From a virus: a stretch of DNA of 51,371 nucleotides. The stretch is from IMG/VR virus record IMGVR_UViG_3300029787_000079, positions 1-51,371 of that record; one strand, 5' to 3'. The first letter of the stretch is position 1; every line of letters starts with the position of its first letter. Below are positions 37,583 to 51,027 of the stretch, one piece after another. Under the pieces are notes generated by a model. The model did no database searches, was not told the origin of the DNA, and saw only the letters and a program-made list of their open reading frames with translations. The translations under genes were made by a program, and so were the position numbers.

Positions 37583-38240
37583 ACTATATAATTATCCGAA
37601 GACCGTAAGATCTTCTATTGATGGAGTACGTAAATATGATGTTAATGACGAGAAATTACCTAGTGTCACGACTATATTAAAAGCCACTGAATCTGAAGAT
37701 AAGAAAGAATCTTTATCTCGTTGGAAAGATAGGGTCGGCGAAGTTGAGGCAGATAGAATTAAAAATGTAGCGGCAACTAGGGGAACTGCTATGCACACGT
37801 ATCTCGAACATTATATTAAAGGTGGCAAGGTGCTCGATTTAACCGACGTGGGGCGAGAGGCGAGTAGCATGGGTCAAATGATTATTGACAAAGGATTTAG
37901 TGACTTGGAGGAAGTATGGGGCGTCGAGTGTACACTACATTATCCGGGTCTATACGCTGGTCAAACTGACATGTGTGGAATTTATCAAGGACGCGAAAGT
38001 ATAATAGACTTCAAGCAATCGAACAAGCCCAAACGTGCCGAGTGGATAGATGATTATAAATTACAACTTGTTGCATACGCTATGGCGCATGACCAAGTCT
38101 ATGGAACGAGGATCGAGCAGGGTGTTATTTTGATGTGTACACCGGATAATTTCTTTCAGAGGTTTCTAGTGAATGGCAGCGAGTTTCGGAAGTGGAAATG
38201 GGAGTGGCTAAAAAAGATTGACCAATACTATAATTCTTAA
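37569..38240 (+). CDS. PD-(D/E)XK exonuclease, RecB/Cas4-like, 223 aa
   Basis: Predicted DNA exonuclease for replication or recombination. SVTTILKATE and TRGTAMHTYLEHYIKGG give the RecB-family motif I. GLYAGQTDMCGIYQGRESII then DFKQSNKPK give the D...DxK catalytic core. DDYKLQLVAYAMAHDQVYGT is the QxxxY motif. This set defines the Cas4/RecB-type PD-(D/E)XK nucleases. The ATG at 37569 is preferred (GAAAGAA upstream). The gene is noticeably more GC-rich (about 37640-38200) than its neighbours, which may reflect transfer. Confidence 0.85.
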   Translation: MKWNKLYNYPKTVRSSIDGVRKYDVNDEKLPSVTTILKATESEDKKESLSRWKDRVGEVEADRIKNVAATRGTAMHTYLEHYIKGGKVLDLTDVGREASSMGQMIIDKGFSDLEEVWGVECTLHYPGLYAGQTDMCGIYQGRESIIDFKQSNKPKRAEWIDDYKLQLVAYAMAHDQVYGTRIEQGVILMCTPDNFFQRFLVNGSEFRKWKWEWLKKIDQYYNS

Positions 38241-38416
38241 ATTTTTTTATTCTTAAGTTTTTTAATTTTAATACATTCATTAATAATTTCATCCATTAAA
38301 ATATACATAGGATGTTGTTCGTATAAACTACCAGTGGATACCATCATATCTATCATAGATGCAGATTGTTTTATTTTTTCTTTAGTAAGAGTTATGGTTA
38401 TTTTATTTTTATTCAT
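38237..38416 (-). CDS. Small ribbon-helix-helix-like/helical protein, 59 aa
   Basis: MNKNKITITLTKEKIKQSAS then MIDMMVSTGSLYEQHPMYIL and MDEIINECIKIKKLKNKK. The start KITITLTKEKI followed by two helices could be an RHH-type or HTH-like small regulator; not certain. Preceded on its strand by ACGAGGGCACTT, a good ribosome site. Overlaps the nuclease stop by 4 nt (convergent). The upstream gene's stop overlaps its start. Confidence 0.55.
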   Translation of the reverse strand: MNKNKITITLTKEKIKQSASMIDMMVSTGSLYEQHPMYILMDEIINECIKIKKLKNKKI

Positions 38417-38654
38417 AAGTGCCCTCGTATTGACTTAAATTAGGTAGACTTTCTGATCTTGTTCCTGTGTCAGCCCCTACAGTTTTGTTATTGAGAAGAC
38501 ATGGTCCGTAAAGATTTATAAATTCCCAATTTATGTTATTGGGATTTTTTAAATCATGTCTTATATTTTTAAAATATATTTTTCTATTCTGTTTGGACAT
38601 TTTTAATTTTTTAGTTTGTGTTTTTAAATGGTTTAATTCTTTATTTATTAACAT
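38409..38654 (-). CDS. Small hypothetical protein, 81 aa
   Basis: Not recognised. MLINKELNHLKTQTKKLKMS then KQNRKIYFKNIRHDLKNPNN and LYGPCLLNNKTVGADTGTRS. Basic helical first half with a different, Ser/Gly-rich end. The start could be 38654 or the internal ATG at 38600; the longer reading (38672) lies inside the promoter and is unlikely. Followed by overlapping coupling to 38237-38416. Confidence 0.5.
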   Translation of the reverse strand: MLINKELNHLKTQTKKLKMSKQNRKIYFKNIRHDLKNPNNINWEFINLYGPCLLNNKTVGADTGTRSESLPNLSQYEGTYE

Positions 38655-38661
38655 ATAATCC

Positions 38662-38689
38662 CTTATAATCATTTAAATGTAAGTGTCAA
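38662..38689 (-). promoter_or_regulatory. Minus-strand promoter next to origin-like region
   Basis: On the minus strand: TTGACA (complement of 38684-38689), 16-nt spacer, TATAAG (complement of 38662-38667). A perfect-armed palindrome TATAATCCCTTATA (38654-38667) overlaps the -10, reminiscent of the TATAGGATATTATA elements elsewhere. It would direct the 38654 and 38416 genes away from the origin-like region. Confidence 0.55.
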
Positions 38690-38795
38690 ATTTTAATTTT
38701 AATTTTTGTACAAAAAATACAAAACTGCGACATAAGTATACAGATTAAGGCAACAATGTGGCGAAATCATAGAATAGCCGCACTTTTTGCAAACC

Positions 38796-38835
38796 AAAAG
38801 TGTGGAAGAGGGTATCAAAAAACCCCATAAAATGA
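38796..38835 (+). repeat. 40-nt imperfect direct repeat, copy 1
   Basis: Matches 38880-38919 closely. Both begin AAAAGTGTGGAA and end CATAAAATGA. Each contains a small inverted repeat (here GGGT...ACCC) around tcaaaaa, so each could form a 4-5 bp hairpin. The copies are spaced 84 nt apart, about eight DNA helical turns. Confidence 0.75.
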
Positions 38836-38879
38836 CATTTGCAAAAATTTTTTGTGTCGATTTTACGAAATTTAGGGGC

Positions 38880-38919
38880 AAAAGTGTGGAAACGGGTGTC
38901 AAAAACCCGCATAAAATGA
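38880..38919 (+). repeat. 40-nt imperfect direct repeat, copy 2
   Basis: Second copy. The internal inverted repeat is CGGGT...ACCCG. The hairpin arms differ from copy 1 by compensating changes (G-G-G-T/A-C-C-C kept, outer pair C/G added), suggesting that the stem, not just the sequence, is preserved. Confidence 0.75.
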
Positions 38920-39219
38920 ATTTTTTTTTCAAAAATGTGGAAAATGTGGAAAGTCAAAATGATTAGAATTGTTGATATACAAGGAAACTAGACGATTTCC
39001 ACATTTCCACACTTTTCAAAATGTTTTTGGTCGTGTAAGTCTTCAAAAGTTTTTTAGGTCTTTATTTGTGGAAAAAAGCCAAAAATCGATTATTAACGTT
39101 GGTATACAATAAAAGTAGCTTCCACATTTTTAAAACTAAAAATGTGGAAAATGTAGAAAGGCGCAATTACCAACACTTTTTCGCATTTAAAAATGTGGAA
39201 GAAATGTGTAATAAGTGTA

Positions 39220-39372
39220 ATGACAGAAAAAGATTTTTGGGATAAATTTAATTCAAAACACAATCCAAGATATTATTATGCCAAAAAGAAGACAGAAGAG
39301 AAAAACAAAGAGAAGGATAAAGAACAAAAAAATTATACCTCTCAATTTAAAATCTTTAGGAAACAAGATTGA
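39220..39372 (+). CDS. Possible small basic protein, 50 aa
   Basis: MTEKDFWDKFNSKHNPRYYY followed by AKKKTEEKNKEKDKEQKNY. First frame after the origin-like region. It overlaps the conserved frame 39278-39622 for 95 nt in another frame. Composition is Lys/Glu-rich and could be real, or the region could be the 5' leader of the next gene. No ribosome site beyond GTGTAA. Confidence 0.3.
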   Translation: MTEKDFWDKFNSKHNPRYYYAKKKTEEKNKEKDKEQKNYTSQFKIFRKQD

Positions 39373-39622
39373 GGCATACCCATTTGTGGAAATTGAATGG
39401 AGTGATATCGAAGGGGATGCTGGTTGGTCTGATACTAAATCATTAAACAAAGAAGAACTACCAACGTGTGTCTCCAAAGGTTACCTTGTTAGTCAAAAAA
39501 ATGGTATTACAAGAATATTTACAGATTACATAAAAACAAAAGATAAACCTACATTTGATAGTATTGGCAACACAACCATAATCCCAACGGCAGTAATACA
39601 ATCAATTAAAAAAATTAATTAA
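39278..39622 (+). CDS. Conserved small phage protein, 114 aa
   Basis: The basic N-terminus (MPKRRQKRKTKRRIKNKKII) is followed by a compact domain: KIEAYPFVEIEWSDIEGDAG, WSDTKSLNKEELPTCVSKGY, LVSQKNGITRIFTDYI and TTIIPTAVIQSIKKI. The domain pattern 'P.V.I.W.DI.GDAGW...........C.S.GYL......I.I...' is remembered from many marine phages. Function unknown; it could bind DNA near the origin. The stop is convergent with, and overlaps, the small terminase stop. Confidence 0.6.
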   Translation: MPKRRQKRKTKRRIKNKKIIPLNLKSLGNKIEAYPFVEIEWSDIEGDAGWSDTKSLNKEELPTCVSKGYLVSQKNGITRIFTDYIKTKDKPTFDSIGNTTIIPTAVIQSIKKIN

Positions 39623-40139
39623 GTTTTTTTAATTTTGGCAACCTTGATTCTTTAACATCTTTTTTAATTTTTTTTGTCATATCTTTCATTTCAACACCTT
39701 CAAGAATAGGTGAGTATTGATCTATAATATCCTTCATCCTCGTTTCTAGCTCCTCCGCACTCAAATCATCTATCTTACCGGTTCGTATAATTTTCTGTTC
39801 AACATATAATCCGGCAGCTTTACCTCTTGCAACCTCTGCGTTAGTTGCGGCAGAAAAAGCCCCTTTCTTTAATGCGTTCTCTCTTATTTTAGCAAGTTCC
39901 GTGATGTGTCTCTCAAAAGTTACCGCATACTTTTTTTGATTTTCTTCACGGAGCTCACCAATGTATTTAACTACGAGAGGGTATTTTTTTGGATTTTGTA
40001 ATTCGTAAGCTCTTATTCTTGCCGCCTCACCATAACCGGCCTCTTTTGCACATTCTGTGCCATTCATTCTACCTTCATTAGCAACAACTAATTGAGCAAA
40101 TTTAATTTGTTTTTCTGTTAATCTTTTAGGAACTCCCAT
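39615..40139 (-). CDS. terS: Terminase small subunit, 174 aa
   Basis: DNA-recognition subunit of the packaging motor. The N-terminal helix-turn-helix region LTEKQIKFAQLVVANEGRMN followed by GTECAKEAGYGEAARIRAYE is typical of Terminase_2-type small subunits, followed by a coiled oligomerisation region (VKYIGELREENQKKYAVTFE) and a Lys-rich C-terminus. The start at 40139 (MGVPKRLTEKQ) is preferred to an upstream in-frame ATG at 40175, which lies inside the promoter. It is on the opposite strand and nearly 6 kb from the large subunit. Confidence 0.85.
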   Translation of the reverse strand: MGVPKRLTEKQIKFAQLVVANEGRMNGTECAKEAGYGEAARIRAYELQNPKKYPLVVKYIGELREENQKKYAVTFERHITELAKIRENALKKGAFSAATNAEVARGKAAGLYVEQKIIRTGKIDDLSAEELETRMKDIIDQYSPILEGVEMKDMTKKIKKDVKESRLPKLKKLN

Positions 40140-40142
40140 ATG

Positions 40143-40175
40143 TTGACGTATAGAGTAATTTAAGGTACAAGTCAA
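40143..40175. promoter_or_regulatory. Bidirectional promoter, both genes leaderless
   Basis: Plus: TTGACG (40143-40148), 17-nt spacer, TACAAG (40166-40171), ATG at 40180. Minus: TTGACT (complement 40170-40175), 17-nt spacer, TATACG (complement 40147-40152), small terminase ATG at 40139. Each ATG lies 7-8 nt after its -10, so both transcripts should begin at or next to the start codon. The two -35 elements are the arms of an inverted repeat (TTGACGTATA / TACAAGTCAA). Confidence 0.65.
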
Positions 40176-40179
40176 CTTT

Positions 40180-40419
40180 ATGATTGATGCGAAATTAATT
40201 CGTCAAGTATTAGATAAGTTTTTGAAAGCAGAAACAGTTAAAAATGCTAGAATGCAAGTTCAAACTTCTGATGGTGTATTTCATGATATTAAATCTATTA
40301 AATTATTAGAAAATAGAATTATAGGTCATAGAGAAACACATAGAATAGTAATACAAGTTATACCAGAAAAAGCTCCAATGGGTAAAGTTGTTAAAGATCA
40401 TGGTGGGATTGTTCTTTAA
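40180..40419 (+). CDS. Conserved small phage protein, 79 aa
   Basis: MIDAKLIRQVLDKFLKAETV then KNARMQVQTSDGVFHDIKSI KLLENRIIGHRETHRIVIQV IPEKAP. A helix followed by a beta-domain; the 'DIKSIKLLEN.IIG.RETHRIVI.V.P' segment is remembered from marine phages. Probably leaderless (no ribosome site; see the promoter entry). Divergent from the small terminase and coupled to the oxygenase gene by TAATG-like overlap. Function unknown. Confidence 0.65.
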   Translation: MIDAKLIRQVLDKFLKAETVKNARMQVQTSDGVFHDIKSIKLLENRIIGHRETHRIVIQVIPEKAPMGKVVKDHGGIVL

Positions 40420-41081
40420 TGACCGAATTAAAGACAATTTCTTTATTTGACACATTTATTTATCAAGCAGAAATACCAAAATATTTAAATGATAAAGATT
40501 TTATGAATGTTTGTAATGAACATACAGATAAAGCCATAAAAAACACACAACAAAAAATTATAGAAAGACAAAAAAAATATAAAACTGATATAAAAGATCA
40601 CGGCTTGTCTTATCATTCTGACGAAAAATTATATCAAGATAAGCGATTTTACAATTTTGAATTATTAATAAGAAACACTGCTCGAAATATTTTAATAGAT
40701 CAAGGATTCGATTTAGATAATTATTCTTTAAATTACACTGAAATGTGGATACAAAAGTTTGCTTTTGAGGGTGGGGGTCATCAAGATACACACGTTCACT
40801 GGGATAATCACATATCTGGTTTTTATTTTGTTGATTGTTCTGAAAGAACATCAAAACCAATTTTTCATGATCCTCGTCAAGGTCGTATGATGTTAAACTT
40901 ACCTATTAGAGACCACTCTAAACTATGTCCAGCTATGGAAAGACAGATTATAAAAGTTAAACGTGGAACGCTTTTAATGTTTAATTCTTGGTTGCCCCAT
41001 CAATTTAGTGTTGATGATGGTATTGATCCGTTTAGATTTATACATTTTAATTTACAGGCAAAATTAAACAGTGAAAGATGA
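40419..41081 (+). CDS. 2-oxoglutarate/Fe(II) oxygenase, HxHxD type, 220 aa
   Basis: Fifth oxygenase, paralogue of 7393-8067. The metal motif is THVHWDNH (H125, H127, D129) before ISGFYFV. FHDPRQGRMMLNLPIRDHSK follows. The distal histidine is in FNSWLPHQ (H194) and R206 is in PFRFIHFNLQA. The 7393 homologue has Asn where this one has Asp at the third position, which may alter metal or substrate chemistry. The N-terminal third is helical and charged. Preceded by a coupled small gene. The substrate is unknown. Confidence 0.85.
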   Translation: MTELKTISLFDTFIYQAEIPKYLNDKDFMNVCNEHTDKAIKNTQQKIIERQKKYKTDIKDHGLSYHSDEKLYQDKRFYNFELLIRNTARNILIDQGFDLDNYSLNYTEMWIQKFAFEGGGHQDTHVHWDNHISGFYFVDCSERTSKPIFHDPRQGRMMLNLPIRDHSKLCPAMERQIIKVKRGTLLMFNSWLPHQFSVDDGIDPFRFIHFNLQAKLNSER

Positions 41082-41430
41082 AAGTAAGTTTTGGCAATAT
41101 GTCAAAAAGAATACACCTAATATTAAATGGACACGAATTGAAAATTCTGCTGCACTCGGCACTCCGGATCTTTTAGGGTATTTTAATGATAGTTTTTTTA
41201 CTATAGAACTTAAAATTGTAAAATCTGGCAATAAAATACGTTTTTCCCCTCATCAAATTTCTTTTCACATAAGACACCCTAAAAACACATTTATATTGGT
41301 TAAAGATGTTAAAAATAAAAAATTTTGTATGTATTTAGGTAGTCAGATATACGAACTTGTTGAAAATGGTCTTAAGATTAAACCTATAACTGAAGATTTT
41401 AAGACTTATTTGGAAAAATTAACAATCTAA
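41071..41430 (+). CDS. PD-(D/E)XK endonuclease, VRR-NUC/resolvase-like, 119 aa
   Basis: Compact nuclease. RIENSAALGTPDLLGYFNDS followed by FFTIELKIVKSGNKIRFSPH QISFHI gives GTPD...ELK and the Q of VRR-NUC/Holliday-resolvase-like enzymes. 119 aa is the usual length. It could resolve branched DNA before packaging. It overlaps the oxygenase end by 11 nt and the convergent minus-strand gene by 12 nt. Confidence 0.8.
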   Translation: MKDESKFWQYVKKNTPNIKWTRIENSAALGTPDLLGYFNDSFFTIELKIVKSGNKIRFSPHQISFHIRHPKNTFILVKDVKNKKFCMYLGSQIYELVENGLKIKPITEDFKTYLEKLTI

Positions 41431-41640
41431 ACAATAGTTTTCAAACACTGTGTAATCTGGTCTTAATGGTTTTAAACATTTGAAACAATATCCTTTTTTA
41501 TTTTCATACTTGCCATTAATCTTATGTGTAAGATTAAAATGATTTCTTAAATCCTTTACTTTCCATTTCTTAAACTCGTTCAGATGGTGTGGTTCCACCA
41601 TCTTTAACAAGTCTTCTTTCTCTAGTAGTCTAGCTTTCAT
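41419..41640 (-). CDS. Small protein with C-terminal zinc ribbon, 73 aa
   Basis: MKARLLEKEDLLKMVEPHHL then NEFKKWKVKDLRNHFNLTHK; the C-terminal part is YCFKCLKPLRPDYTVFENYC LDC, two CxxC pairs 15 residues apart. Last gene of the minus-strand accessory block. Not assigned to a family; DNA or protein binding possible. Confidence 0.55.
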   Translation of the reverse strand: MKARLLEKEDLLKMVEPHHLNEFKKWKVKDLRNHFNLTHKINGKYENKKGYCFKCLKPLRPDYTVFENYCLDC

Positions 41641-41644
41641 TTTT

Positions 41645-41827
41645 TTATTTTGGTATTGAAGTCTTATTATATTTTTTAAGCATATTTCTTAAATCCCAAT
41701 CTTCTTTTATTTGTTTTTTTAATATACTTATTTCACTTGGATTATTACAAATATCAGTAATTACATTTGCAATCCATTTATGGTAATCATCATCTAAATA
41801 TTTATTTACCATTTGTTTTGTTATCAT
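41645..41827 (-). CDS. Small helical protein, 60 aa
   Basis: MITKQMVNKYLDDDYHKWIA then NVITDICNNPSEISILKKQI and KEDWDLRNMLKKYNKTS. Acidic/basic helical protein, no membrane segment. Start overlaps the preceding stop (ATGA type). Not recognised. Confidence 0.5.
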   Translation of the reverse strand: MITKQMVNKYLDDDYHKWIANVITDICNNPSEISILKKQIKEDWDLRNMLKKYNKTSIPK

Positions 41828-42042
41828 TTTATTTTTACTTCTCCCTCTGTTTCAATCCAAACTTTTGCACCACAACTTAATGGTTTATCGGGACTGTATA
41901 TAATTTTACTTGACCCCAACACTTCTACTTCATGTCCATAAATGTTAGATTTAGAGGTTTTAACAGTTATGACAGGTTCATTTAAATTATGTTTTTTATT
42001 ACTTCTAATCTTATGTTGATTTACATGTATTCTAGTTTTCAT
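41824..42042 (-). CDS. Conserved small phage protein, 72 aa
   Basis: MKTRIHVNQHKIRSNKKHNL then NEPVITVKTSKSNIYGHEVE and VLGSSKIIYSPDKPLSCGAK VWIET. The 'HVNQH.IRSNKK......PVITVK....NIYGHEVE..G.SK..YSPDKPLSCGA.VW.ET' pattern is widely remembered in tailed phages, including marine ones. Beta-rich; no assigned function. Confidence 0.7.
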   Translation of the reverse strand: MKTRIHVNQHKIRSNKKHNLNEPVITVKTSKSNIYGHEVEVLGSSKIIYSPDKPLSCGAKVWIETEGEVKIK

Positions 42043-42190
42043 TTGTTTCTATTTCACTTTTTTTAAAACATAACTGATTATCATTTGTTTCTGCATCTTC
42101 ATCTTTTATAACTACTTCTGTTCCATGATCGTATATTATTTTACCAAATATATCTTGATCTTTTACCTTTACTCTATCCCCTATTTTCAT
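42032..42190 (-). CDS. Small KOW/SH3-like protein, 52 aa
   Basis: MKIGDRVKVKDQDIFGKIIY then DHGTEVVIKDEDAETNDNQL. The 'K.GDRV.VKDQ...GKI......VVI.D' pattern is a KOW-like or SH3-like small beta-barrel, as in translation and transcription-associated domains. The ribosome site is AAGGAAGACAA. It overlaps the downstream gene by 11 nt. Confidence 0.55.
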   Translation of the reverse strand: MKIGDRVKVKDQDIFGKIIYDHGTEVVIKDEDAETNDNQLCFKKSEIETNEN

Positions 42191-42202
42191 TTGTCTTCCT
42201 TT

Positions 42203-42457
42203 CTATGTTATCTCTACTCCAAGTTTCTTCTCAATACCTTTAAGAGTTTTACCAATTTCGGTATTACCTTGAAGATCCTTGTATTTTTTTATTTCTTGTT
42301 CTAGGTAATTTTTTATTATTACCTTTGAGCTTATTGCAATATCTTTGTTTTTGTCAACATAAGATAGAACATCTTTTAAAGCATATACTGACCCACTCCA
42401 AGTTGAGTTAAGTTGCATATCTTGTGTTTGTCTTATCATTTTTTCGTAGTCTATCAT
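42203..42457 (-). CDS. Small helical protein, 84 aa
   Basis: MIDYEKMIRQTQDMQLNSTW then SGSVYALKDVLSYVDKNKDI and AISSKVIIKNYLEQEIKKYK. Amphipathic helices, no Cys. The preceding 'GCGAGGAATAA' intercistronic sequence is repeated before 42601. Not recognised. Confidence 0.5.
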   Translation of the reverse strand: MIDYEKMIRQTQDMQLNSTWSGSVYALKDVLSYVDKNKDIAISSKVIIKNYLEQEIKKYKDLQGNTEIGKTLKGIEKKLGVEIT

Positions 42458-42601
42458 TTATTCCTCGCTTTCTGTATTTTTTTCATCATTTTCATATCCA
42501 TCACCCATACAATAATTACATTGAACTCTTGAATGTATATCATCATAAGTTGCTGATAAATTATAGTATCCTTTACCCTCACACATTTGACATTTTGACA
42601 T
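42458..42601 (-). CDS. Small DnaJ-type zinc-finger protein, 47 aa
   Basis: MSKCQMCEGKGYYNLSATYD then DIHSRVQCNYCMGDGYENDE. Cys 4, 7, 28 and 31 as CxxCxGxG and CxYCxGxG, the DnaJ zinc-centre pattern, with an acidic end. Same class as 35489-35680, though in a different gene block. The stop abuts the next start across a repeated AGAAAGCGAGGAATAAATG cassette. Confidence 0.55.
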   Translation of the reverse strand: MSKCQMCEGKGYYNLSATYDDIHSRVQCNYCMGDGYENDEKNTESEE

Positions 42602-42635
42602 TTTATTCCTCGCTTTCTGTTTTTATTTTTTCTTT

Positions 42636-42782
42636 CTAATTTGGCAATCCCTCAGTTATTGAGGCCATACCACCAAAAACAATTAATAAACCTAATATAT
42701 CGTGTTCTGTATGAATTGCAAGTATTACCCCAAGCATTGAGGCAATAAAACCTAGTAATACCATTAATAGTCTTAACATCAT
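42636..42782 (-). CDS. Small two-span membrane protein, 48 aa
   Basis: MMLRLLMVLLGFIASMLGVI LAIHTEHDILGLLIVFGGMA: two hydrophobic stretches joined by a short polar loop. Starts overlap the upstream stop (ATGATG over TGA). Together with 42779-42886 it forms a pair of tiny membrane proteins. Possibly holin-like or superinfection-exclusion related; no proof. Confidence 0.5.
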   Translation of the reverse strand: MMLRLLMVLLGFIASMLGVILAIHTEHDILGLLIVFGGMASITEGLPN

Positions 42783-42886
42783 ACAACCCCCATTGTTGCC
42801 CATTGATGTAAAGCAAACATTATTATTGATACAAAACTAATAACAAATGTAATGCTAAATATTATTATCCATTTAAGATCTTTCAT
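42779..42886 (-). CDS. Small single-span membrane protein, 35 aa
   Basis: MKDLKWIIIFSITFVISFVS IIMFALHQWATMGVV: one membrane segment (residues 6-26). Its start follows AAAGGATAATATG, the same intercistronic type as in the genes upstream. The stop overlaps the next start. Function unknown. Confidence 0.5.
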   Translation of the reverse strand: MKDLKWIIIFSITFVISFVSIIMFALHQWATMGVV

Positions 42887-42887
42887 A

Positions 42888-43172
42888 TTATCCTTTCTGC
42901 TCGCTTGCTTGTTCTTTTAATTTATAATCTGGTATTTCTATTTCATATATTAAAAATGAATCTGTTTTATGCTCATATTCATAATAAAATGTTTTATTCC
43001 AATATTTATTTTCTAAATGTGAAATAAACCCATCAATCCAACAATCATCATCACCATTAAAATAATTTTCATTTTTAATTTCTGGATATTCTTTTTTACA
43101 ATATTTTTTAAACTCTTCACTTATCAACCATAAAGATTTAACTCCACCTACTTCTAAATATAAAGTTCTCAT
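42888..43172 (-). CDS. Small acidic protein with QASEQKG C-terminus, 94 aa
   Basis: Not recognised. MRTLYLEVGGVKSLWLISEE followed by FKKYCKKEYPEIKNENYFNG and an aromatic-rich second half (NKYWNKTFYYEYEHKTDSFL). It ends KLKEQASEQKG, an ending shared with the next two upstream genes. The sequence encoding the tag also carries the next gene's ribosome site (CAGAAAGG). Acidic, no membrane segment. Confidence 0.55.
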   Translation of the reverse strand: MRTLYLEVGGVKSLWLISEEFKKYCKKEYPEIKNENYFNGDDDCWIDGFISHLENKYWNKTFYYEYEHKTDSFLIYEIEIPDYKLKEQASEQKG

Positions 43173-43173
43173 A

Positions 43174-43395
43174 TTATCCCTTCTGCTCGCTCGCTTGTTG
43201 TTTTAATTCTATTCCGTCTTGTTCTAAATGATCTAATAAATTTAAACTTTTTGCCATATCTTCTGCTGTTTTTGGACAAATACAAAAAGCCACAGTATTA
43301 ATTTTACCATTTTGAAAATCATATTTTACAGCAACATCGTCTGAAAAATAATTACCTTCAAAATCCTCATCGTGTATCATATCATTTGTTATCAT
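43174..43395 (-). CDS. Small protein with QASEQKG C-terminus, 73 aa
   Basis: MITNDMIHDEDFEGNYFSDD then VAVKYDFQNGKINTVAFCIC PKTAEDMAKSLNLLDHL. It ends ELKQQASEQKG. Two Cys in VAFCICPK. Start after AGAAGGGATAAT. The body differs from its neighbours, so only the tail and spacer are shared. Function unknown. Confidence 0.55.
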   Translation of the reverse strand: MITNDMIHDEDFEGNYFSDDVAVKYDFQNGKINTVAFCICPKTAEDMAKSLNLLDHLEQDGIELKQQASEQKG

Positions 43396-43396
43396 A

Positions 43397-43549
43397 TTAT
43401 CCCTTCTGCTCGCTCGCTTGCTCGCTTGTTAGTTTAAAATGCGATGCTTTGGTTAGGTCAATCCCCGCTACTAACACCGCATTTATTCGCACAAAATTAA
43501 ACATCCTGCACAAATCCTTTAAAATCTTTTTTGTTTTTTTATATTTCAT
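43397..43549 (-). CDS. Small basic protein with QASEQKG C-terminus, 50 aa
   Basis: MKYKKTKKILKDLCRMFNFV then RINAVLVAGIDLTKASHFKL and TSEQASEQKG. The ATG at 43549 is used because the longer frame (from 43630) would run through the TTGACT/TATAAA promoter at 43563-43590. The first nine residues come from the duplicated 67-bp cassette, so the gene was made by joining the cassette to a new coding sequence. Function unknown. Confidence 0.45.
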   Translation of the reverse strand: MKYKKTKKILKDLCRMFNFVRINAVLVAGIDLTKASHFKLTSEQASEQKG

Positions 43550-43591
43550 ACTTTCATTTATTTTTATATAATATCCTATATATAAGTCAAT
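43525..43591 (-). repeat. 67-bp direct repeat copy 1: promoter plus start cassette
   Basis: Identical to 43861-43927. On the minus strand it holds TTGACT (complement 43585-43590), 16-nt spacer, TATAAA (complement 43563-43568), the TATAGGATATTATA element (complement 43567-43580), the leader and the ATGAAATATAAA start. Here it provides both the promoter and the first codons of 43397-43549. Confidence 0.85.
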
Positions 43592-43593
43592 CG

Positions 43594-43848
43594 TTATTTC
43601 CCCTCTTTTATTTCTAATTGATGAACACATTTACCATATTTGTCAAATAAATATCCATTAGCTTGACAATGTTCTATGATGTCAGTTTCTTCCCAATCAC
43701 TAGGATAATCTAATTTTGTAACTATATTACCATTTTCATCTTCGTCTTCATAATCAAACGGTAATTTATCAAGCCAAATTTTTACATGAACTTTGCTATC
43801 ATCACTCAAGTCTTGGTAATTATAAGCATTTATTTTTATTGTTTCCAT
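43594..43848 (-). CDS. Small acidic protein, 84 aa
   Basis: METIKINAYNYQDLSDDSKV then HVKIWLDKLPFDYEDEDENG and WEETDIIEHCQANGYLFDKY. Asp/Glu-rich (pI clearly acidic), with KIWLDKLPFDYEDE as the most conserved-looking part. The ribosome site GAGAGGAAT lies 5 nt before ATG. The small, acidic character is common in host-takeover or antirestriction proteins; no specific assignment. Confidence 0.55.
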   Translation of the reverse strand: METIKINAYNYQDLSDDSKVHVKIWLDKLPFDYEDEDENGNIVTKLDYPSDWEETDIIEHCQANGYLFDKYGKCVHQLEIKEGK

Positions 43849-43860
43849 TATTCCTCTCTT

Positions 43861-43927
43861 TCTTTTTTGTTTTTTTATATTTCATACTTTCATTTATTTT
43901 TATATAATATCCTATATATAAGTCAAT
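43861..43927 (-). repeat. 67-bp direct repeat copy 2: promoter plus leader
   Basis: Identical to 43525-43591, 336 bp away. On the minus strand the promoter is TTGACT (complement 43921-43926) and TATAAA (complement 43899-43904) with TATAGGATATTATA (complement 43903-43916). The same ATGAAATATAAA start is present (43885) but opens only a 21-codon frame overlapping the start of the 43848 gene. It is a relic or leader peptide. Confidence 0.85.
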
Positions 43928-44250
43928 TATGTTCCCCTCCAATAATAATTTTTACCTTGAAATGTGCTTTCCGAATAATCCATTTTCATTAAGTTAGACC
44001 ATTTTTCCCAATCAATACAATTTTCTAATGGGTTAAAAGTATCTGATCTTATTTCTAAATAACCACAATCGGAGGCAAAATCTCTACAATAATCTTCCCA
44101 ATAATACTCACTTATAAAATGAATACCATGTTCCCAACCATAGTTTTCGCATTCTTCTTTTAACTCTTTAATCGCCTCCTTTGTTTCGTTGTCTGTATCA
44201 GGATTATTCAATTCTTCTTCTAAATCCCTACTATCTAATGTATCGCTCAT
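43927..44250 (-). CDS. Acidic small protein, possibly antirestriction-like, 107 aa
   Basis: MSDTLDSRDLEEELNNPDTD then KELKEECENYGWEHGIHFIS, YYWEDYCRDFASDCGYLEIR and NCIDWEKWSNLMKMDYSEST. Very acidic with many Trp/Tyr. The 'YGWEHGIHFISE.Y.EDY....A...G' and 'IDWE.....L.MDY....F.G..Y..R' parts are remembered from phage proteins sometimes labelled antirestriction. Acidic DNA-mimic function is only a hypothesis. Preceded on its strand by AAAGGAAAAAATG. Confidence 0.6.
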   Translation of the reverse strand: MSDTLDSRDLEEELNNPDTDNETKEAIKELKEECENYGWEHGIHFISEYYWEDYCRDFASDCGYLEIRSDTFNPLENCIDWEKWSNLMKMDYSESTFQGKNYYWRGT

Positions 44251-44272
44251 TTTTTCCTTTCGTTAAGATTGA

Positions 44273-44301
44273 ATACTATAATATCCTATATAATAAGTCA
44301 A
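44273..44301 (-). promoter_or_regulatory. Minus-strand promoter of the 43927-44250 gene
   Basis: TTGACT (complement 44296-44301), 17-nt spacer, TAGTAT (complement 44273-44278), overlapped by TATAGGATATTATA (complement 44277-44290). The start codon at 44250 follows about 15 nt after the inferred start point with AAAGGAAAAA between. Confidence 0.65.
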
Positions 44302-44332
44302 TCATTATTATTGATTAAAATTAATATAATTT

Positions 44333-44557
44333 CTATTGGTTCATTTCTTTTTGTAATGCTGATTTTACTAATTCATAATTTTCAGTATAACCACCATCAA
44401 TCAAAGCAGTTCGAACTGCTTTATTGTCCTTGTTATGTGCATATACAAAATTCTTTTCTGTTGGAAATTTCTTTCCATTTATATGAACAGTAACACCTTG
44501 TAAGTAACCAAAATAATATTTTGGCTTAACTAATATTTTTAATTTATCTATGTTCAT
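44333..44557 (-). CDS. Small hypothetical protein, 74 aa
   Basis: MNIDKLKILVKPKYYFGYLQ then GVTVHINGKKFPTEKNFVYA and ALIDGGYTENYELVKSALQK. Beta-rich with no membrane segment. The ATG at 44557 is chosen because CCAAAGGAGAA lies 9-14 nt upstream; an upstream ATG overlaps the previous gene. Coupled by two bases to the 44927 gene. Confidence 0.5.
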   Translation of the reverse strand: MNIDKLKILVKPKYYFGYLQGVTVHINGKKFPTEKNFVYAHNKDNKAVRTALIDGGYTENYELVKSALQKEMNQ

Positions 44558-44558
44558 A

Positions 44559-44927
44559 TTAATTATTCTCCTTTGGTTCAAAACTTAAGATAATATTAGC
44601 CATAAACAACCAGTAATTTTGTTCAACTTTAGACCTTAATTTGTCGCTTGGATTAGGATCTATTGAACCCATTTTGACAGCTAGATTAACAATATCATCA
44701 TAATAATACTCAATATTTAAAGCCAGCCCGCCTAACCATTCCGCGATTGCTTTTTGTTTTCCAACTCTCTCAACCATAAAACCATATTCAGAATAAAACT
44801 TATCAAAAATATAATTAATCTTCTCTTGATCTGTTTTTAATGGTTTCCCTTCTCCGTCTTCTTCAATTGTTGACAAAATATAATTTTTATAATTTTTTTT
44901 ATATTCTGTGTGATGTAGTTTTGTCAT
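44559..44927 (-). CDS. Conserved phage protein, 122 aa
   Basis: MTKLHHTEYKKNYKNYILST then KTDQEKINYIFDKFYSEYGF, MVERVGKQKAIAEWLGGLAL and NIEYYYDDIVNLAVKMGSID, ending FMANIILSFEPKENN. The 'KTDQEKI.YIFDRF.SEYG..IERVGKQ.A..EWL.GLA' block is remembered from marine phages. Soluble and helical. First gene of the minus-strand block after its promoter. The ATG at 44927 is preceded by AAAGGATATAAAACA. Function unknown. Confidence 0.65.
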   Translation of the reverse strand: MTKLHHTEYKKNYKNYILSTIEEDGEGKPLKTDQEKINYIFDKFYSEYGFMVERVGKQKAIAEWLGGLALNIEYYYDDIVNLAVKMGSIDPNPSDKLRSKVEQNYWLFMANIILSFEPKENN

Positions 44928-44954
44928 TGTTTTATATCCTTTCATTAAGATTAA

Positions 44955-44982
44955 ATCTTATAATATCCTATATATATGTCAA
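44955..44982 (-). promoter_or_regulatory. Minus-strand promoter for the accessory block
   Basis: TTGACA (complement 44977-44982), 16-nt spacer, TAAGAT (complement 44955-44960), with TATAGGATATTATA (complement 44959-44972) between them. It drives the 44927 gene; downstream genes have additional copies of the same element. Confidence 0.6.
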
Positions 44983-45266
44983 CTCTTTGTACTCTAAAAA
45001 ACAAACTTTTTTTGACCTATTTTATAGGCGCATTTATTCAATTAAAACGTGTGTTATTCTAGTTTATAATGGCTCTAATCTATAAAGTCATTAAAAGTCA
45101 CTTACTTGCAAATTACAACCTTTGGAAGATGCTCAAAAGTTCCCCGCTCCTCGTCTCTTGCAACTGGTAAGTGTAAGCTAAAGCTGTGGTATTTATGCAA
45201 CAGTATTTGAGAGACGGGAAACTAGAGACTCATTAAAAATAAATAAGACTCATTAAAAATAAATAG
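44983..45266. other. Non-coding divergent region with structured stretch and 20-bp tandem repeat
   Basis: No credible gene. Between 45139 and 45222 complementary segments can pair: TTCCC (45140-45144) with GGGAA (45216-45220), CGTCTCT (45152-45158) with AGAGACG (45210-45216), and TTGCA (45158-45162) with TGCAA (45196-45200). This gives an interrupted long stem with a small internal AGCT...AGCT element. AGACTCATTAAAAATAAATA is repeated in tandem at 45226-45245 and 45246-45265. It could be a small RNA, a processed leader or a protein-binding site; not tRNA-like. Confidence 0.45.
45226..45265 (+). repeat. 20-bp perfect tandem repeat
   Basis: AGACTCATTAAAAATAAATA occurs twice without a gap. It lies directly upstream of the TTGACT of the next promoter, where an activator or repressor would bind, or marks a recent insertion. 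Confidence 0.8.
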
Positions 45267-45295
45267 TTGACTTTACTTGTGGGAGATTATAGGAT
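45267..45295 (+). promoter_or_regulatory. Plus-strand promoter of the 45321 gene
   Basis: TTGACT (45267-45272), 17-nt spacer, TAGGAT (45290-45295). TTATAGGAT within it resembles the TATAGGAT half of the recurring element. The start codon at 45321 follows with GGAG at 45309-45312. Confidence 0.55.
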
Positions 45296-45320
45296 TTAAA
45301 AAACAAATGGAGAAAAAACA

Positions 45321-45605
45321 ATGAATAAAAAATATGGAATATTAGAGTATCAAGCGCCAAGTTGGTCGGCTCATAAGTATTATTATAAGAGCATTGATCT
45401 TGAGGATGTCGGTCATGATTGGTTTGATTGTTTAAATGACGATCAACAAGCATACGTTCAACAAATGCCAAAATACTCACATCTTAATTATGATGAAGTA
45501 ATAAAACAATATGACAAGGATATTTTACCTAAATATATAAAATATCAAAAGTCTTTAGGTTGGGCTTGTGATAGTCAAGGGAATATAATAGGCATTATTA
45601 AATAA
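45321..45605 (+). CDS. Hypothetical protein of an isolated transcription unit, 94 aa
   Basis: MNKKYGILEYQAPSWSAHKY then YYKSIDLEDVGHDWFDCLND and DQQAYVQQMPKYSHLNYDEV. Acidic and aromatic-rich with one Cys; no membrane segment and no family recognised. It has its own promoter (45267-45295) and terminator (45625-45657) and sits alone between the minus-strand block and the large terminase, opposite in strand to its left neighbours. This is the organisation of a phage moron (an acquired, independently transcribed cargo gene). Confidence 0.6.
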   Translation: MNKKYGILEYQAPSWSAHKYYYKSIDLEDVGHDWFDCLNDDQQAYVQQMPKYSHLNYDEVIKQYDKDILPKYIKYQKSLGWACDSQGNIIGIIK

Positions 45606-45624
45606 TCTTTAAAACTCCCTAGTT

Positions 45625-45657
45625 CCCTGCCACGCGCCACGCGTGGCAGGGTTTTTT
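45625..45657 (+). terminator. Strong rho-independent terminator
   Basis: CCCTGCCACGCG (45625-45636) pairs perfectly with CGCGTGGCAGGG (45640-45651), 12 bp with a 3-nt loop, and is followed by TTTTTT (45652-45657). It is the strongest terminator in the window and isolates the 45321 gene from the terminase operon. Confidence 0.9.
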
Positions 45658-45905
45658 GTTTGCGCCTCGTTGCGAGTTGCTAGGATCTGGCCAATTAATA
45701 GAGGTACCAAAGCAAAGCCAAAATTACAAAAGTTCTTATTTATTAATTCTTTTTTTCGAGAAAGATGTAACTAACACTAGTTATTATTGCGAGATTTGTA
45801 CGGTTTATGACCTCAAATTCGTTATTGCTTTCTAAGAGAATACCGAATAAATTAACAATCGTTGGAAACATTAACCAAAAAATTTTACAAAAAATTTTTT
45901 TCAAA

Positions 45906-47375
45906 ATGCATATTGATTTAGACAAAATAAAAAAGCTCCCACCAGATGTCCGAAAAGACTTTATGAAAATGGCTGTAAAGCTAGACGAAAAGAAAAAAGT
46001 ATCAAAGGTTAGAAAAGACTTTCTTTCCTTTACAAAGCATATGTGGCCTGAGTTTATTGAAGGTAAACACCACAAGATTATTTCACAAAAATTTAATGAT
46101 CTTGCAAGTGGTAAAATAAAAAGATTAATTGTAAATATGCCACCAAGACATACCAAATCAGAGTTCGCTAGCTCCTTGCTTCCCGCTTGGATGATCGGGC
46201 GTAATCCAAAATTAAAAATAATTCAAACTACTCACACCGGAGAACTTGCAATAAGATTCGGGCGTAAAGCTAAAACGCTGATGGATACCGAAGACTACAA
46301 ACAAGTGTTTGAGACAAGACTTAGAGAGGATAGTCAAGCAGCGGGCAGATGGGAAACCGAGCAAGGTGGCGAATACTTTGCATCAGGTGTTGGTGGAGCA
46401 ATAACAGGTCGTGGTGCAGATTTATTAATAATTGATGATCCACACTCAGAGCAAGACGCTATGAACAATCAAGCGTTGGAGCGAGCATACGAATGGTATA
46501 CATCAGGACCAAGACAACGTCTTCAACCGGGTGGTGCAATCGTTTGTGTAATGACAAGATGGAATACGAAAGATTTAACAGGTATGTTATTAAAACATCA
46601 AAAAGAAGCAAAAGCAGATCAGTGGGAGGTTGTAGAGTTCCCAGCGATCATGCCATCAGGTAAACCGGTATGGCCTGAGTATTGGAAGCTGAAAGAATTA
46701 GAAACAGTAAAGGCATCCTTATCACTTGGCAAATGGAACGCACAATGGATGCAAAACCCAACATCAGAAGAGGGAGCTATCATTAAACGGGAGTGGTGGA
46801 ACATTTGGGAAAAAGAAGAGATGCCAATATTAGAACACGTTATACAATCTTACGATACCGCTTTTATGAAAAAAGAAACAGCCGACTATAGTGCTATAAC
46901 TACATGGGGTGTATTTCGTGAAAACGAAGACAGTCCACAACAGTTAATATTAGTCGATGCACTAAAAGGTAGATACGAGTTTCCCGAACTTCGCCGAATA
47001 GCAAAAGAGCAATATGATTACTGGAATCCAGAAACTGTTCTAGTTGAGGCTAAAGCCAGTGGACTACCACTTACATACGAGTTGAGGAATATGGGTATAC
47101 CTGTTGTAAATTATACTCCTTCTAAAGGAAACGACAAGCACGCTAGAGTAAATGCTGTTGCACCTTTGTTTGAAAGTGGTATGATATGGACTCCTGATGA
47201 AAAGTTTGCAGAAGAGGTGATTGAGGAGTGTGCTGCTTTTCCATACGGTGACCACGATGACTTGGTCGATAGTATGACTCAGGCTGTGATGCGATTTAGA
47301 CAGGGAGGGTTGGTACCGCATCCTGAAGATTATAGAGATGAGCAAATTATAAAAACGAAAAGAACTTATTACTAA
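45906..47375 (+). CDS. terL: Terminase large subunit, 489 aa
   Basis: DNA-packaging ATPase/nuclease. ATPase motifs: LIVNMPPRHTKSEFASSLLP (Walker A-type PPRHTKSE), LLIIDDPHSEQDA (Walker B). The nuclease domain has QSYDTAFMKKETADYSAITT (first Asp), VLVEAKASGLPLTY (second acid) and GDHDDLVDSMTQA (third). Length matches Terminase_6-type large subunits. The ATG at 45906 (MHIDLDKIKKLPPDVRKDF) is preferred; an ATG at 45807 would add 33 unusual residues. No good ribosome site precedes either. It overlaps the next gene by TAATG. Confidence 0.92.
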   Translation: MHIDLDKIKKLPPDVRKDFMKMAVKLDEKKKVSKVRKDFLSFTKHMWPEFIEGKHHKIISQKFNDLASGKIKRLIVNMPPRHTKSEFASSLLPAWMIGRNPKLKIIQTTHTGELAIRFGRKAKTLMDTEDYKQVFETRLREDSQAAGRWETEQGGEYFASGVGGAITGRGADLLIIDDPHSEQDAMNNQALERAYEWYTSGPRQRLQPGGAIVCVMTRWNTKDLTGMLLKHQKEAKADQWEVVEFPAIMPSGKPVWPEYWKLKELETVKASLSLGKWNAQWMQNPTSEEGAIIKREWWNIWEKEEMPILEHVIQSYDTAFMKKETADYSAITTWGVFRENEDSPQQLILVDALKGRYEFPELRRIAKEQYDYWNPETVLVEAKASGLPLTYELRNMGIPVVNYTPSKGNDKHARVNAVAPLFESGMIWTPDEKFAEEVIEECAAFPYGDHDDLVDSMTQAVMRFRQGGLVPHPEDYRDEQIIKTKRTYY

Positions 47376-47869
47376 TGTCAGAACTAACAGATAAATATTC
47401 AAAAAATTTTAGCCCTTCACGAAAAAAAGAATTTGAAAGACGTGTGCGTGAAATAGGTGCTGATATGTCAGAGCTATCAGCTATACAATTAGTTTTAGCA
47501 GAAATGAGAAGTGAAATGAAATTAGGCGGTAGAGCTGGTTTTGAAATGGGGGGTATGTTTTCAGTTAATCCTGATGAAGCAGTTAAATTTAATTTAGACG
47601 GAGAAACAATAAATTTAAATCCAAAATTTTTTGAAATGTTTATGGGTCCTTTTATGAAAGATCCTAAAATGAAAAAAAGAAGAATAGATGATCTTAAACA
47701 AGAAATTAGAAGAAACAGAAAAATTGTAAAAGCATCAAAAGGAGGTCTAATAGACAAGCCACTAGGAGCGGGTGGCAAGAAATCAGGACCACCTCCTGAA
47801 AAAGGTCCAAACTCGAAAGGGTTGAATGTTAAAGGTAATACTGTTAAGACGGTAAAACTGGAGAAATAA
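47375..47869 (+). CDS. Marine-phage conserved protein between terminase and portal, 164 aa
   Basis: N-terminal helical half (MSELTDKYSKNFSPSRKKEF then ERRVREIGADMSELSAIQLV), then MKLGGRAGFEMGGMFSVNPD and a basic stretch (MKKRRIDDLKQEIRRNRKIV), and the end GAGGKKSGPPPEKGPNSKGL NVKGN. The KLGGRAGFEMGG motif recurs in other virion-block proteins of the window, and the Pro-rich GKKSGPPPEKGP end is remembered from marine phages at the same position. A scaffold or portal-assembly role is possible. Confidence 0.6.
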   Translation: MSELTDKYSKNFSPSRKKEFERRVREIGADMSELSAIQLVLAEMRSEMKLGGRAGFEMGGMFSVNPDEAVKFNLDGETINLNPKFFEMFMGPFMKDPKMKKRRIDDLKQEIRRNRKIVKASKGGLIDKPLGAGGKKSGPPPEKGPNSKGLNVKGNTVKTVKLEK

Positions 47870-50347
47870 ATGGCAGAAATAGACAAAGCTTTGCCCAATG
47901 AGGTAAGAAAAGAAATCAACATTCCTAGCGTAGAAGACGTTCAAGTAGAAATAGAAAAAGAGTCAGAGCAAAAAGGCCCAGTAGAAGTTCAAGAAAACGA
48001 AGATGGTAGTGTTGATGTAAACTTTGATCCAAGACTTGGAAGTTTAGATCAAACAAATGAACATTTTGCAAACTTAGCTGAACTGTTACCGGATGATATA
48101 TTGGATCCGTTGGGAAGCAAAATGTATGAAAATTATACAGATTACAAATCTTCAAGAAAAGATTGGGAAAGAACTTATACACAAGGTTTAGAACTTTTAG
48201 GTTTTAATTATGATGATAGAACAGAGCCATTTAAAGGAGCAAGTGGTGCAACACACCCAGTTCTTGCTGAAGCAGTTACACAGTTTCAAGCATTAGCTTA
48301 CAAAGAATTATTACCAGCCGAAGGTCCTGTTAGAACTCAAATAATAGGTATGCCAACTCCAGATAAAGAAGCTCAGTCACAAAGAGTAAAACAATTTATG
48401 AACTATCAGATAATGAATGAAATGAAAGAGTATGAAGCTGAGTTTGATCAAATGTTATTTTATTTACCACTTGCAGGATCATCATTTAAAAAAGTTTACT
48501 ATGATGAAATTATGCAAAGAGCTGTTTCAAAATTTGTACCTGCAGATGATATTGTTGTGCCTTATACTGCAACATCGTTAGATGATTGCGAATCTGTAAT
48601 ACACAGAGTTCGTATGACAGAAAATGAACTACGAAAACAACAAGTGGGTGGTTTTTATAGAGATATAGAAATTAATCCTGCATACATGGATGAAACATCG
48701 TCTGAAAAAGCAGAGAGAGAATTAGATGGAACATCAAGAGGCAGGGATCAGAGAGTGTATACTCTTTTAGAGTGTCACGTTAATTTAGACTTAGAGGGTT
48801 TTGAAGACATTGGAGTTAACAATGAACCAACAGGAATTAAACTTCCATACATTATAACTGTTGAAGAAGGCACAAGAAAAGTTTTATCTATTCGAAGAAA
48901 TTATGAAATAGGAGATGCACAAAAAAATAAAATTAATTACTTTGTACATTTTAAATTTTTACCAGGACTAGGATTTTACGGTTTTGGATTAACCCACATG
49001 ATCGGAGGACTATCAAGAACAGCGACTGCAGCTCTTAGACAACTATTAGATGCAGGAACTCTGTCAAACTTACCAGCAGGATTTAAGATGCGTGGAATTA
49101 AAATGAGAGATGAAGCGCAGTCAATACAACCAGGAGAATTTAGAGATGTAGATGCACCAGGTGGAAATTTGAAAGATGCATTTATGACTTTACCGTTTAA
49201 AGAACCATCTCAAACTTTATTACAACTTATGGGTGTCGTGGTATCTGCAGGACAACGATTCGCTTCCATAGCGGACCTGCAAGTAGGAGATGGGAACCAA
49301 CAAGCAGCAGTGGGCACGACAGTAGCTATGTTGGAAAGAGGATCAAGAGTAATGTCTTCGATTCATAAACGAATGTATGCTGCGATGAAAAAAGAATTTA
49401 CTATTTTAGCTAGAGTATTTAAATTATACTTACCTCCGATTTACCCCTACGATGTTATTGGTGGACAAAATCAAATTAAACAAACTGATTTTGACGATCG
49501 TGTAGACATCTTACCGGTTGCTGATCCAAATATTTTTAGCCAAACCCAAAGGATCTCTTTAGCTCAAACAGAAATGCAACTGGCTGCCTCAAACCCTCAA
49601 ATACATAATCAATACGAAGTCTATCGTAATATGTATGAGGCATTGGGGGTAAAAGATATTGATTTAATTTTAAAAAGACCAGAAAGACCTATGCCAAAAG
49701 ACCCAGCACTAGAACATATCGATGCATTAGCTGGAAAACCTTTTCAAGCATTTCCTGGACAAGACCATCAAGCACACATTACAGCTCATTTAAACTTTAT
49801 GGAAACAAATATGGTTAAAAACGCACCTATGGTTGGCGCTGCAATACAAAAAAACATACTTGAACACATAAGTTTAATGGCTCAAGAACAAATTGAAGTA
49901 GAATTTAGACAAGAATTACCACAATTAATGAAAATACAACAAATGGCAATGCAAAATCCGCAATTACAACAACAAGCAAGAATGTTACAAGAAAAAATTG
50001 AAGCTAGAAAAGCAGTTTTAGTGTCAGAAATGATGGACGACTATGCAAAAGAAGAGAAAAAAATAACTTCACAGTTTGATAATGATCCAATTGCTAAATT
50101 AAGAGCAAGAGAATTAGATTTACAGGCGCAAGAAAACGCTAGAAAACAAAAAGAAGGCGAAGAAAGAATAAATCTTGATAAAATGAGAGCTATGATGAAT
50201 GATCAAAACCAAGATGAAAAATTAAAACAGAATGAAGAGCTTGCAAATCTTCGTGCAGATACTTCAATACAAAAAACTATCTTAAGTAAAACAATACCAC
50301 CATCAGATAAAACACCTGATGCGGTTTCAATTATAAGAAAGGATTAA
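47870..50347 (+). CDS. Portal protein, P22-type, 825 aa
   Basis: Ring-forming head vertex protein through which DNA enters and exits. The characteristic region is SGATHPVLAEAVTQFQALAY KELLPAEGPVRTQIIGMPTP, followed by QMLFYLPLAGSSFKKVYYDE, FVPADDIVVPYTATSLDDCE and LPGLGFYGFGLTHMIGGLSR TATAALRQLLDAGTLSNLPA. Length exceeds the 725-aa P22 portal. The last 130 residues are a Gln/Met-rich helical barrel-like region (LMKIQQMAMQNPQLQQQARM). It follows the terminase and precedes small virion-block genes, as expected. Confidence 0.88.
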   Translation: MAEIDKALPNEVRKEINIPSVEDVQVEIEKESEQKGPVEVQENEDGSVDVNFDPRLGSLDQTNEHFANLAELLPDDILDPLGSKMYENYTDYKSSRKDWERTYTQGLELLGFNYDDRTEPFKGASGATHPVLAEAVTQFQALAYKELLPAEGPVRTQIIGMPTPDKEAQSQRVKQFMNYQIMNEMKEYEAEFDQMLFYLPLAGSSFKKVYYDEIMQRAVSKFVPADDIVVPYTATSLDDCESVIHRVRMTENELRKQQVGGFYRDIEINPAYMDETSSEKAERELDGTSRGRDQRVYTLLECHVNLDLEGFEDIGVNNEPTGIKLPYIITVEEGTRKVLSIRRNYEIGDAQKNKINYFVHFKFLPGLGFYGFGLTHMIGGLSRTATAALRQLLDAGTLSNLPAGFKMRGIKMRDEAQSIQPGEFRDVDAPGGNLKDAFMTLPFKEPSQTLLQLMGVVVSAGQRFASIADLQVGDGNQQAAVGTTVAMLERGSRVMSSIHKRMYAAMKKEFTILARVFKLYLPPIYPYDVIGGQNQIKQTDFDDRVDILPVADPNIFSQTQRISLAQTEMQLAASNPQIHNQYEVYRNMYEALGVKDIDLILKRPERPMPKDPALEHIDALAGKPFQAFPGQDHQAHITAHLNFMETNMVKNAPMVGAAIQKNILEHISLMAQEQIEVEFRQELPQLMKIQQMAMQNPQLQQQARMLQEKIEARKAVLVSEMMDDYAKEEKKITSQFDNDPIAKLRARELDLQAQENARKQKEGEERINLDKMRAMMNDQNQDEKLKQNEELANLRADTSIQKTILSKTIPPSDKTPDAVSIIRKD

Positions 50348-50348
50348 T

Positions 50349-50744: not shown

Positions 50745-51027
50745 ATTATACAACAAACAAGTATCACCTAAAGGATATAAAATGGGTGGAAGAGTAAAAA
50801 AAATGGGTGGCGGAATGATGAAGCGAAAACCTATGATGAAGGGATCTAAACCTGACTTTTTAGATTTAGATAAAGATAATAATAAAACTGAGTCCATGAA
50901 ATCTGCAGCAGCATCAGCTAAAAAAATGATGAAAGGTGGCAGAGTAAAAAAAATGGGCGGAGGTATGTCTAAATTAAATCCTGGTCTTAGAAAATTTATA
51001 ATGTCTAAGAAAAAAGGTAAAGCATAA
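50734..51027 (+). CDS. Basic Gly/Met/Lys-rich protein with EF-hand-like loop, 97 aa
   Basis: MANRLYNKQVSPKGYKMGGR VKKMGGGMMKRK, then KPDFLDLDKDNNKTESMKSA and KKMMKGGRVKKMGGGMSKLN. A GGRVKKMGGGM module is present at both ends. Between them DLDKDNNKTE resembles a calcium-binding DxDxDN EF-hand/dockerin loop. Basic ends suggest DNA or capsid interior binding. It overlaps the previous gene by 11 nt behind AAACGGAGG. Function unknown. Confidence 0.6.
   Translation: MANRLYNKQVSPKGYKMGGRVKKMGGGMMKRKPMMKGSKPDFLDLDKDNNKTESMKSAAASAKKMMKGGRVKKMGGGMSKLNPGLRKFIMSKKKGKA

Follow-up and report, generated by a model that had tools for sequence, protein, structure and literature searches.

Two identical copies of a probable promoter and 5'-leader module among the leftward early genes of a pelagiphage-like virus

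The leftward early region of the virus genome described here carries two identical copies of a 67-nt sequence. With a probability of roughly three in four, we read this sequence as a movable promoter and 5'-leader module of a phage probably infecting SAR11, the second copy having been placed by recombination. The window, as the whole analysed stretch is called here, is a virus record of 51,371 nt. The first-pass annotation had pointed to two identical 67-nt stretches in it and was right about them: they agree at 67 of 67 positions, both read on the minus strand with 336 nt from one to the next, and their identity stops exactly at the boundaries given below. No other exact direct repeat in the window comes close to this length, the runner-up being 34 nt long and located inside a coding gene, and no matches to its exact 24-nt core were expected from shuffled sequences. 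As judged from sequence comparison, the pair is a real and probably functional duplication of a promoter and its leader.

43525 to 43591, minus strand: copy 1 of the 67-nt cassette; putative -35 TTGACT (43590-43585), 16-nt spacer, -10 TATAAA (43568-43563) and A-rich untranslated leader
43861 to 43927, minus strand: copy 2 of the 67-nt cassette, identical to copy 1; precedes the 84-aa gene

Relatives of the phage and the order of the two copies

Matches to terminase, portal, DNA polymerase and primase were obtained in the window, together with DNA matches to Pelagibacter phages HTVC027P, HTVC010P and HTVC033P; no tRNA was found in the 51,371 nt. By these matches the phage lies near the pelagiphages and, since its nearest named relatives are pelagiphages, its host is probably SAR11. 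Among viral contigs beyond the window, the 24-nt core was found in L006 and L007 only, and this narrow spread of the exact 67-mer counts against the module reading; the 67-mer also had no match in 50,697 phage records (INPHARED). The TerL protein of L007 (IMGVR_UViG_3300030090_004832) is 100% identical to that of the window over 522 residues. This contig has a single cassette, 67/67 identical and at the left position, and its flanks are closer to those of copy 1 (39/60 downstream and 16/30 upstream) than to those of copy 2 (18/60 and 9/30, respectively). As the only copy in L007 has copy 1-like flanks, the position of copy 1 appears to be ancestral and copy 2 is probably the derived one. The comparison of copy number and position with related contigs, proposed in the first-pass annotation, thus gave two copies at the same spacing in L006 and one in L007.

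The cassette as a probable promoter

Read on the minus strand, the cassette consists of TTGACT-N16-TATAAA and an A-rich stretch. It is best read as a putative host-sigma70-type promoter followed by a 5' untranslated leader, since TTGACA-like and TATAAT-like hexamers are found at a separation within 16-18 nt and before a gene. The cassette belongs to a family of predicted promoters that stand in front of unrelated early genes, all reading leftward and located on the upstream side of the terminase. Their layout is TTGAC[AT]-N16/17-TAAGAT, TAGGAT, TAGTAT or TATTAT, followed by a Shine-Dalgarno sequence (mostly GAAAGG) and ATG. Further predicted promoters near the cassette are the following:

44273 to 44301, minus strand: same family, TTGACT-N17-TAGTAT, before the 107-aa gene
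44955 to 44982, minus strand: same family, TTGACA-N16-TAAGAT, before a 128-aa gene
45267 to 45295, plus strand: same kind but divergent, TTGACT-N17-TAGGAT, reading rightward into the gene at 45321 and on to the terminase

For 17 loci, chosen from 81 TerL-bearing ones (80 and the window) for their closeness and upstream sequence, the leftward pattern TTGAC[AT]-N16/17-TA..A[AT] with a Shine-Dalgarno sequence and ATG was matched 19 times in the regions upstream of TerL, whereas 50 shuffles averaged 0.06 matches and never gave more than 1; given the relatedness of the loci and the post hoc choice of the pattern, these numbers point to a family and are not an unbiased significance. A plain consensus promoter scan gave no clear excess (29 vs 21.3 in shuffles, sd 5.0), and the cassette is absent from it because TATAAA does not have the required final T. 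A T7-like phage promoter, suggested by TATAGG, which resembles the T7 promoter core, was rejected as the main reading: the spacing to GACT shifts by one base, and the relatives have TTGAC-N16/17-TAAGAT. No RNA polymerase was found among the scanned subset of window proteins. The related pelagiphage Skadi-1 is described as having sigma70 promoters and no RNA polymerase (PMC10504331).

Genes and leader around the two copies

The surroundings of the two copies are as follows:

43927 to 44250, minus strand: 107-aa antirestriction-like gene; its protein is distantly related to ones from phages of Caulobacter, Gordonia and Mycobacterium
43849 to 43861, minus strand: gene-start module GAAAGAGAGGAAT with the Shine-Dalgarno sequence of the 84-aa gene; same type at 42616 and 42471
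43594 to 43848, minus strand: 84-aa gene between the two copies; no family found
43397 to 43549, minus strand: 50-codon frame opening inside copy 1; judged chimeric, not conserved
43485 to 43515, minus strand: leader hairpin P1, 13 bp, spanning the GFVQDV-stop left over from a GP88-type gene; stem covaries in relatives
43437 to 43484, minus strand: leader hairpin P2, with an outer stem of 12 bp; relatives differ strongly in its sequence

The genes are tightly packed around the cassettes. The antirestriction-like gene has a stop codon that includes the first base of copy 2, the 84-aa gene starts at 43848, 13 nt past the end of copy 2, with its own Shine-Dalgarno sequence (AGAGAGG in the gene-start module), and GAGGGGAAATAA of the same gene directly precedes copy 1. 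Relatives of the 84-aa gene were found in 15 loci, one of which, L172, is the L006 contig, and in L173-L175 its homologue occurs in differing contexts. In L174 and L175 the homologue abuts the next gene, its 3' end serving as the Shine-Dalgarno sequence and start of that gene; in the window the 3' end keeps AGAGGGGAAATAA, which resembles the Shine-Dalgarno sequence of the next gene in these operonic relatives. Searches of the small genes against Pfam and PHROGs gave mostly no match.

On the 3' side, copy 1 is followed by what remains of the end of a GP88-type gene (PF17338 in L118), which in another frame reads KKDFKGFVQDV-stop, as at the ends of longer genes elsewhere (e.g., L141 and L152). 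The leader hairpins had a z score of -2.66, with 3 of 200 shuffles equally stable. Rfam returned no useful family in this region of the window, and the two sub-threshold matches were to unlikely families. The array heads of 47 loci similarly have a covarying stem at the GFVQDV-stop gene end, followed by hairpins of phage-specific sequence; 21 of the 41 distinct inserts there fold as a single hairpin closed by its own ends, and L147 has two such hairpin units in tandem.

Alternative readings of the repeat

The contig comes from a virus collection largely built from metagenomes and the repeat is exact, which could raise the suspicion of an assembly artefact or a collapsed variant. L006 (IMGVR_UViG_3300029448_001252) makes this hardly credible. 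It aligns to positions 37937-50933 of the window with 99.49% identity (63 mismatches in 12,999 aligned positions), and has both copies with the same 336-nt spacing and the same unique flanks. In addition, a repeat of 67 nt is shorter than the usual read length. A more serious, yet still unlikely, reading is that the repeat is mainly a putative binding site. The 14-nt element TATAGGATATTATA, located between -35 and -10, would then act as the operator of some regulator, encoded by the phage or by the host, and the identity of the copies would have been kept because both promoters need joint control. The recurring 14-nt element of the first-pass annotation is indeed present: TATAGGATATTATA, made up of the 3' part of the spacer and the first two bases of the -10, has five exact copies in the window, each of them on the minus strand and four preceded by TTGAC. 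It is an imperfect palindrome (10 of 14 positions symmetric), and such conservation of the spacer inside the window genome goes beyond what a sigma70 promoter requires, thus counting against the sigma70 reading. However, TATAGGATATTATA is not fixed across the promoter family, as the relatives L009 and L013 have GGGAGATTATAAGAT or similar spacers in its place. Moreover, the fifth exact copy (34213-34226, minus strand) has no TTGAC upstream, and no regulator has been identified.

The first-pass annotation had further suggested that promoter and N-terminus were copied together, ATGAAATATAAA being the start used at both sites. Its promoter part is retained here, given the single copy in L007 and the parallels in L014 and L024 described below, while the N-terminus part appears quite improbable. 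ATGAAATATAAA does lie within both copies (43549 and 43885, minus strand), and the frames were described correctly: it opens the 50-codon frame in copy 1 and a 21-codon frame overlapping another start, the ATG at 43848, in copy 2. The end of the 50-codon frame also coincides with the stop of a junction repeat, a feature that array genes show in 87 of 109 adjacent pairs. On the other hand, the Shine-Dalgarno sequence is weak, and the short frame in copy 2 overlaps the likely start of the 84-aa gene, which is in a different frame. The 50-codon frame runs across the GP88 gene relic and the two hairpins, and its equivalent in L007 ends after 19 codons (MKYKKTKKILMDLCKMFNI). Among 53 distinct leaders, for which identical sequences and nothing else were merged, the related frame from ATGTTTAAT reached the junction stop in 17, stopped early in 24 and ran beyond in 12. 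As the copy 1 frame crosses the relic and hairpins and stops early in L007, a duplicated N-terminus is not supported; it is possible that a leader peptide is made in the window genome. The duplication of a promoter and its untranslated leader is the reading followed below.

Small-gene array and junction repeats

An array of small genes begins behind copy 1. The genes are separated by the 28-nt repeat CAAGCGAGCGAGCAGAAGGGATAATATG, from which the upstream gene gets a C-terminal QASEQKG and a stop codon, and the downstream gene a Shine-Dalgarno sequence and ATG.

43393 to 43420, minus strand: junction repeat 1 (stop, Shine-Dalgarno sequence, start)
43170 to 43197, minus strand: junction repeat 2
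42884 to 42911, minus strand: junction repeat 3

The junction repeat pattern was found in 83 stretches of viral contigs and in none of the bacterial and archaeal genome set; INPHARED phages gave one weak match only (E 0.9). Such an array is also present in L007 (596-1612). The counts for arrays, leaders and families come from loci that were not deduplicated by contig (L031 and L133 are one contig), so that the events are not independent: open reading frames ended exactly at the TAA of the next repeat in the 87 of 109 adjacent pairs mentioned above, 191 cassette proteins stripped of their tails fell into 74 families, and 105 adjacent pairs comprised 82 distinct ordered family pairs, with at least two different neighbors for 27 families. 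The array data support the idea that small genes are reordered at repeated boundaries, and they form the background against which the promoter copy is to be viewed. No integrase, as in an integron-type array, was found among the scanned subset of window proteins.

Parallel duplications and hammerhead-like modules

Of 164 loci examined, 26 contained exact direct repeats of 28 nt or longer, 48 pairs in all. The 28-nt junction repeat accounts for 33 of the pairs. Four of the other 15 are long (58-72 nt), with a gene start closely following at least one of the two copies; these are the 67-nt pairs of the window and of L006, which represent one event, and one pair each in L014 and L024. L014 has a 58-nt unit of promoter and Shine-Dalgarno sequence 9 nt before two starts, and L024 a hammerhead-like 72-nt unit 10 nt before two starts. 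The proteins behind the paired units are not homologous in either case (best E 0.22 and no hit, respectively). Judging by these units, the copying of regulatory modules recurs independently in the relatives L014 and L024. The other 11 pairs include coding repeats and fragments of leaders or junctions. A 34-nt repeat spans two starts in L121, L058 has a 35-nt promoter-like unit whose second copy is without a clear gene, and L166 has a 125-nt repeat.

In the L024 unit we read a type II hammerhead (GATC-GAAA-hairpin-TC-hairpin-CTGATGA-GATC); further downstream there is a third copy, which has diverged. Hammerhead-like modules are located on the minus strand of L024 (1406, 1874-1945 and 2254-2325), L007 (2922), L011 (2181), L012 (7598), L013 (602) and L014 (2368), where they directly precede the Shine-Dalgarno sequence and start of early genes, and their stems change compensatorily among these six loci. 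They are candidate hammerheads, assigned by the core motif and by pairing; Rfam gave no match up to E 0.5 for the modules of L007 and L024. At the array heads Rfam returned no useful family, the sole gathering match being Hammerhead_II (RF02276) in L097 (5238-5310, plus strand; E 1.1e-06), outside the array, and 16 further loci gave no gathering match.

Comparison with known systems

By analogy, the closest precedent appears to be the PeSLs of T4-type phages, which are mobile regulatory cassettes (Arbiol 2010; Comeau 2014; via PMC4503421). In these, early promoter modules are repeated intergenically and are thought to let recombination shuffle small early genes. Similarly, a predicted early promoter is found here in repeated intergenic units before unrelated genes. 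Unlike in PeSLs, there is no terminator-like stem-loop on the cassette strand: positions 42400-45400 have one terminator-like site, on the plus strand at 44403, and none joined to the cassette promoter. In addition, PeSLs are described from T4-type phages, whereas the nearest named relatives here are pelagiphages, and the junction repeats add a stop codon, a Shine-Dalgarno sequence and a start. On this analogy, the 67-nt pair would be a variant of the shuffling of regulatory cassettes that T4-type phages show; no report describing these repeats in this phage group was found in the literature searched.

The SAS/ESAS of cluster K mycobacteriophages (PMC3203893) are also short repeats right upstream of the starts of genes of different families, the SAS being the 13-mer GGGATAGGAGCCC at the translation start. 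The 13-mer published there is not in the 67-nt cassette, which differs in having a promoter and in ending before the gene start (13 nt short at copy 2). The 28-nt junction repeat is functionally nearer to the SAS, yet it encodes a shared C-terminal tail and stop codon. HTVC010P/Skadi-type pelagiphages share the leftward small early genes beside a rightward terminase and have early genes in common at 77-84% DNA identity, but are without the 67-mer, given the lack of matches in the phage records.

Proposed mechanism and implications

Host RNA polymerase with the housekeeping sigma factor would start transcription at TTGACT-N16-TATAAA, and the A-rich leader of the cassette would contain no gene of its own. 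Copy 1, in the ancestral position, would drive the hairpin-bearing leader and the small-gene array behind it. Recombination, presumably homologous, would have set the second copy before an incoming 84-aa gene, resulting in a promoter-gene-promoter arrangement between the antirestriction-like gene and the array. The joining of a foreign gene to a promoter copy by recombination fits because of the tight packing (the shared stop base and GAGGGGAAATAA abutting copy 1). If each early gene or small operon had its own promoter module, gain, or loss by repeat crossover, would leave the neighbors undisturbed; a crossover between the two 67-mers would be expected to excise the 84-aa gene cleanly.

How lytic marine phages take up and express new small early genes, many of which are perhaps directed against host defence, is largely an open question. 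A newly placed gene flanked on either side by an intact promoter copy, in a clade whose other start-associated modules are duplicated likewise, would suggest a concrete and testable route, namely recombination at reusable regulatory boundaries, and the window is one apparent example of small early genes being swapped via interchangeable regulatory parts. We tentatively propose, at slightly less than even odds, that SAR11-type phages have a system of standard parts, in which promoter, hammerhead-ribozyme/Shine-Dalgarno and 28-nt junction modules are the exchange points for small genes. Small, probably host-directed genes would then be gained, lost and reordered as cassettes, in an integron-like manner yet driven by ordinary recombination at repeated gene boundaries. 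With the junction-repeat arrays as a guide, small genes of unknown function could also be harvested systematically across the SAR11-type phages. A gene for a small CxxC protein in the window (42458-42601, minus strand) has approximately 86% DNA identity over 104 nt to a gene of HTVC105P, and as the latter is an Autographiviridae pelagiphage, small early genes seem to cross phage families.
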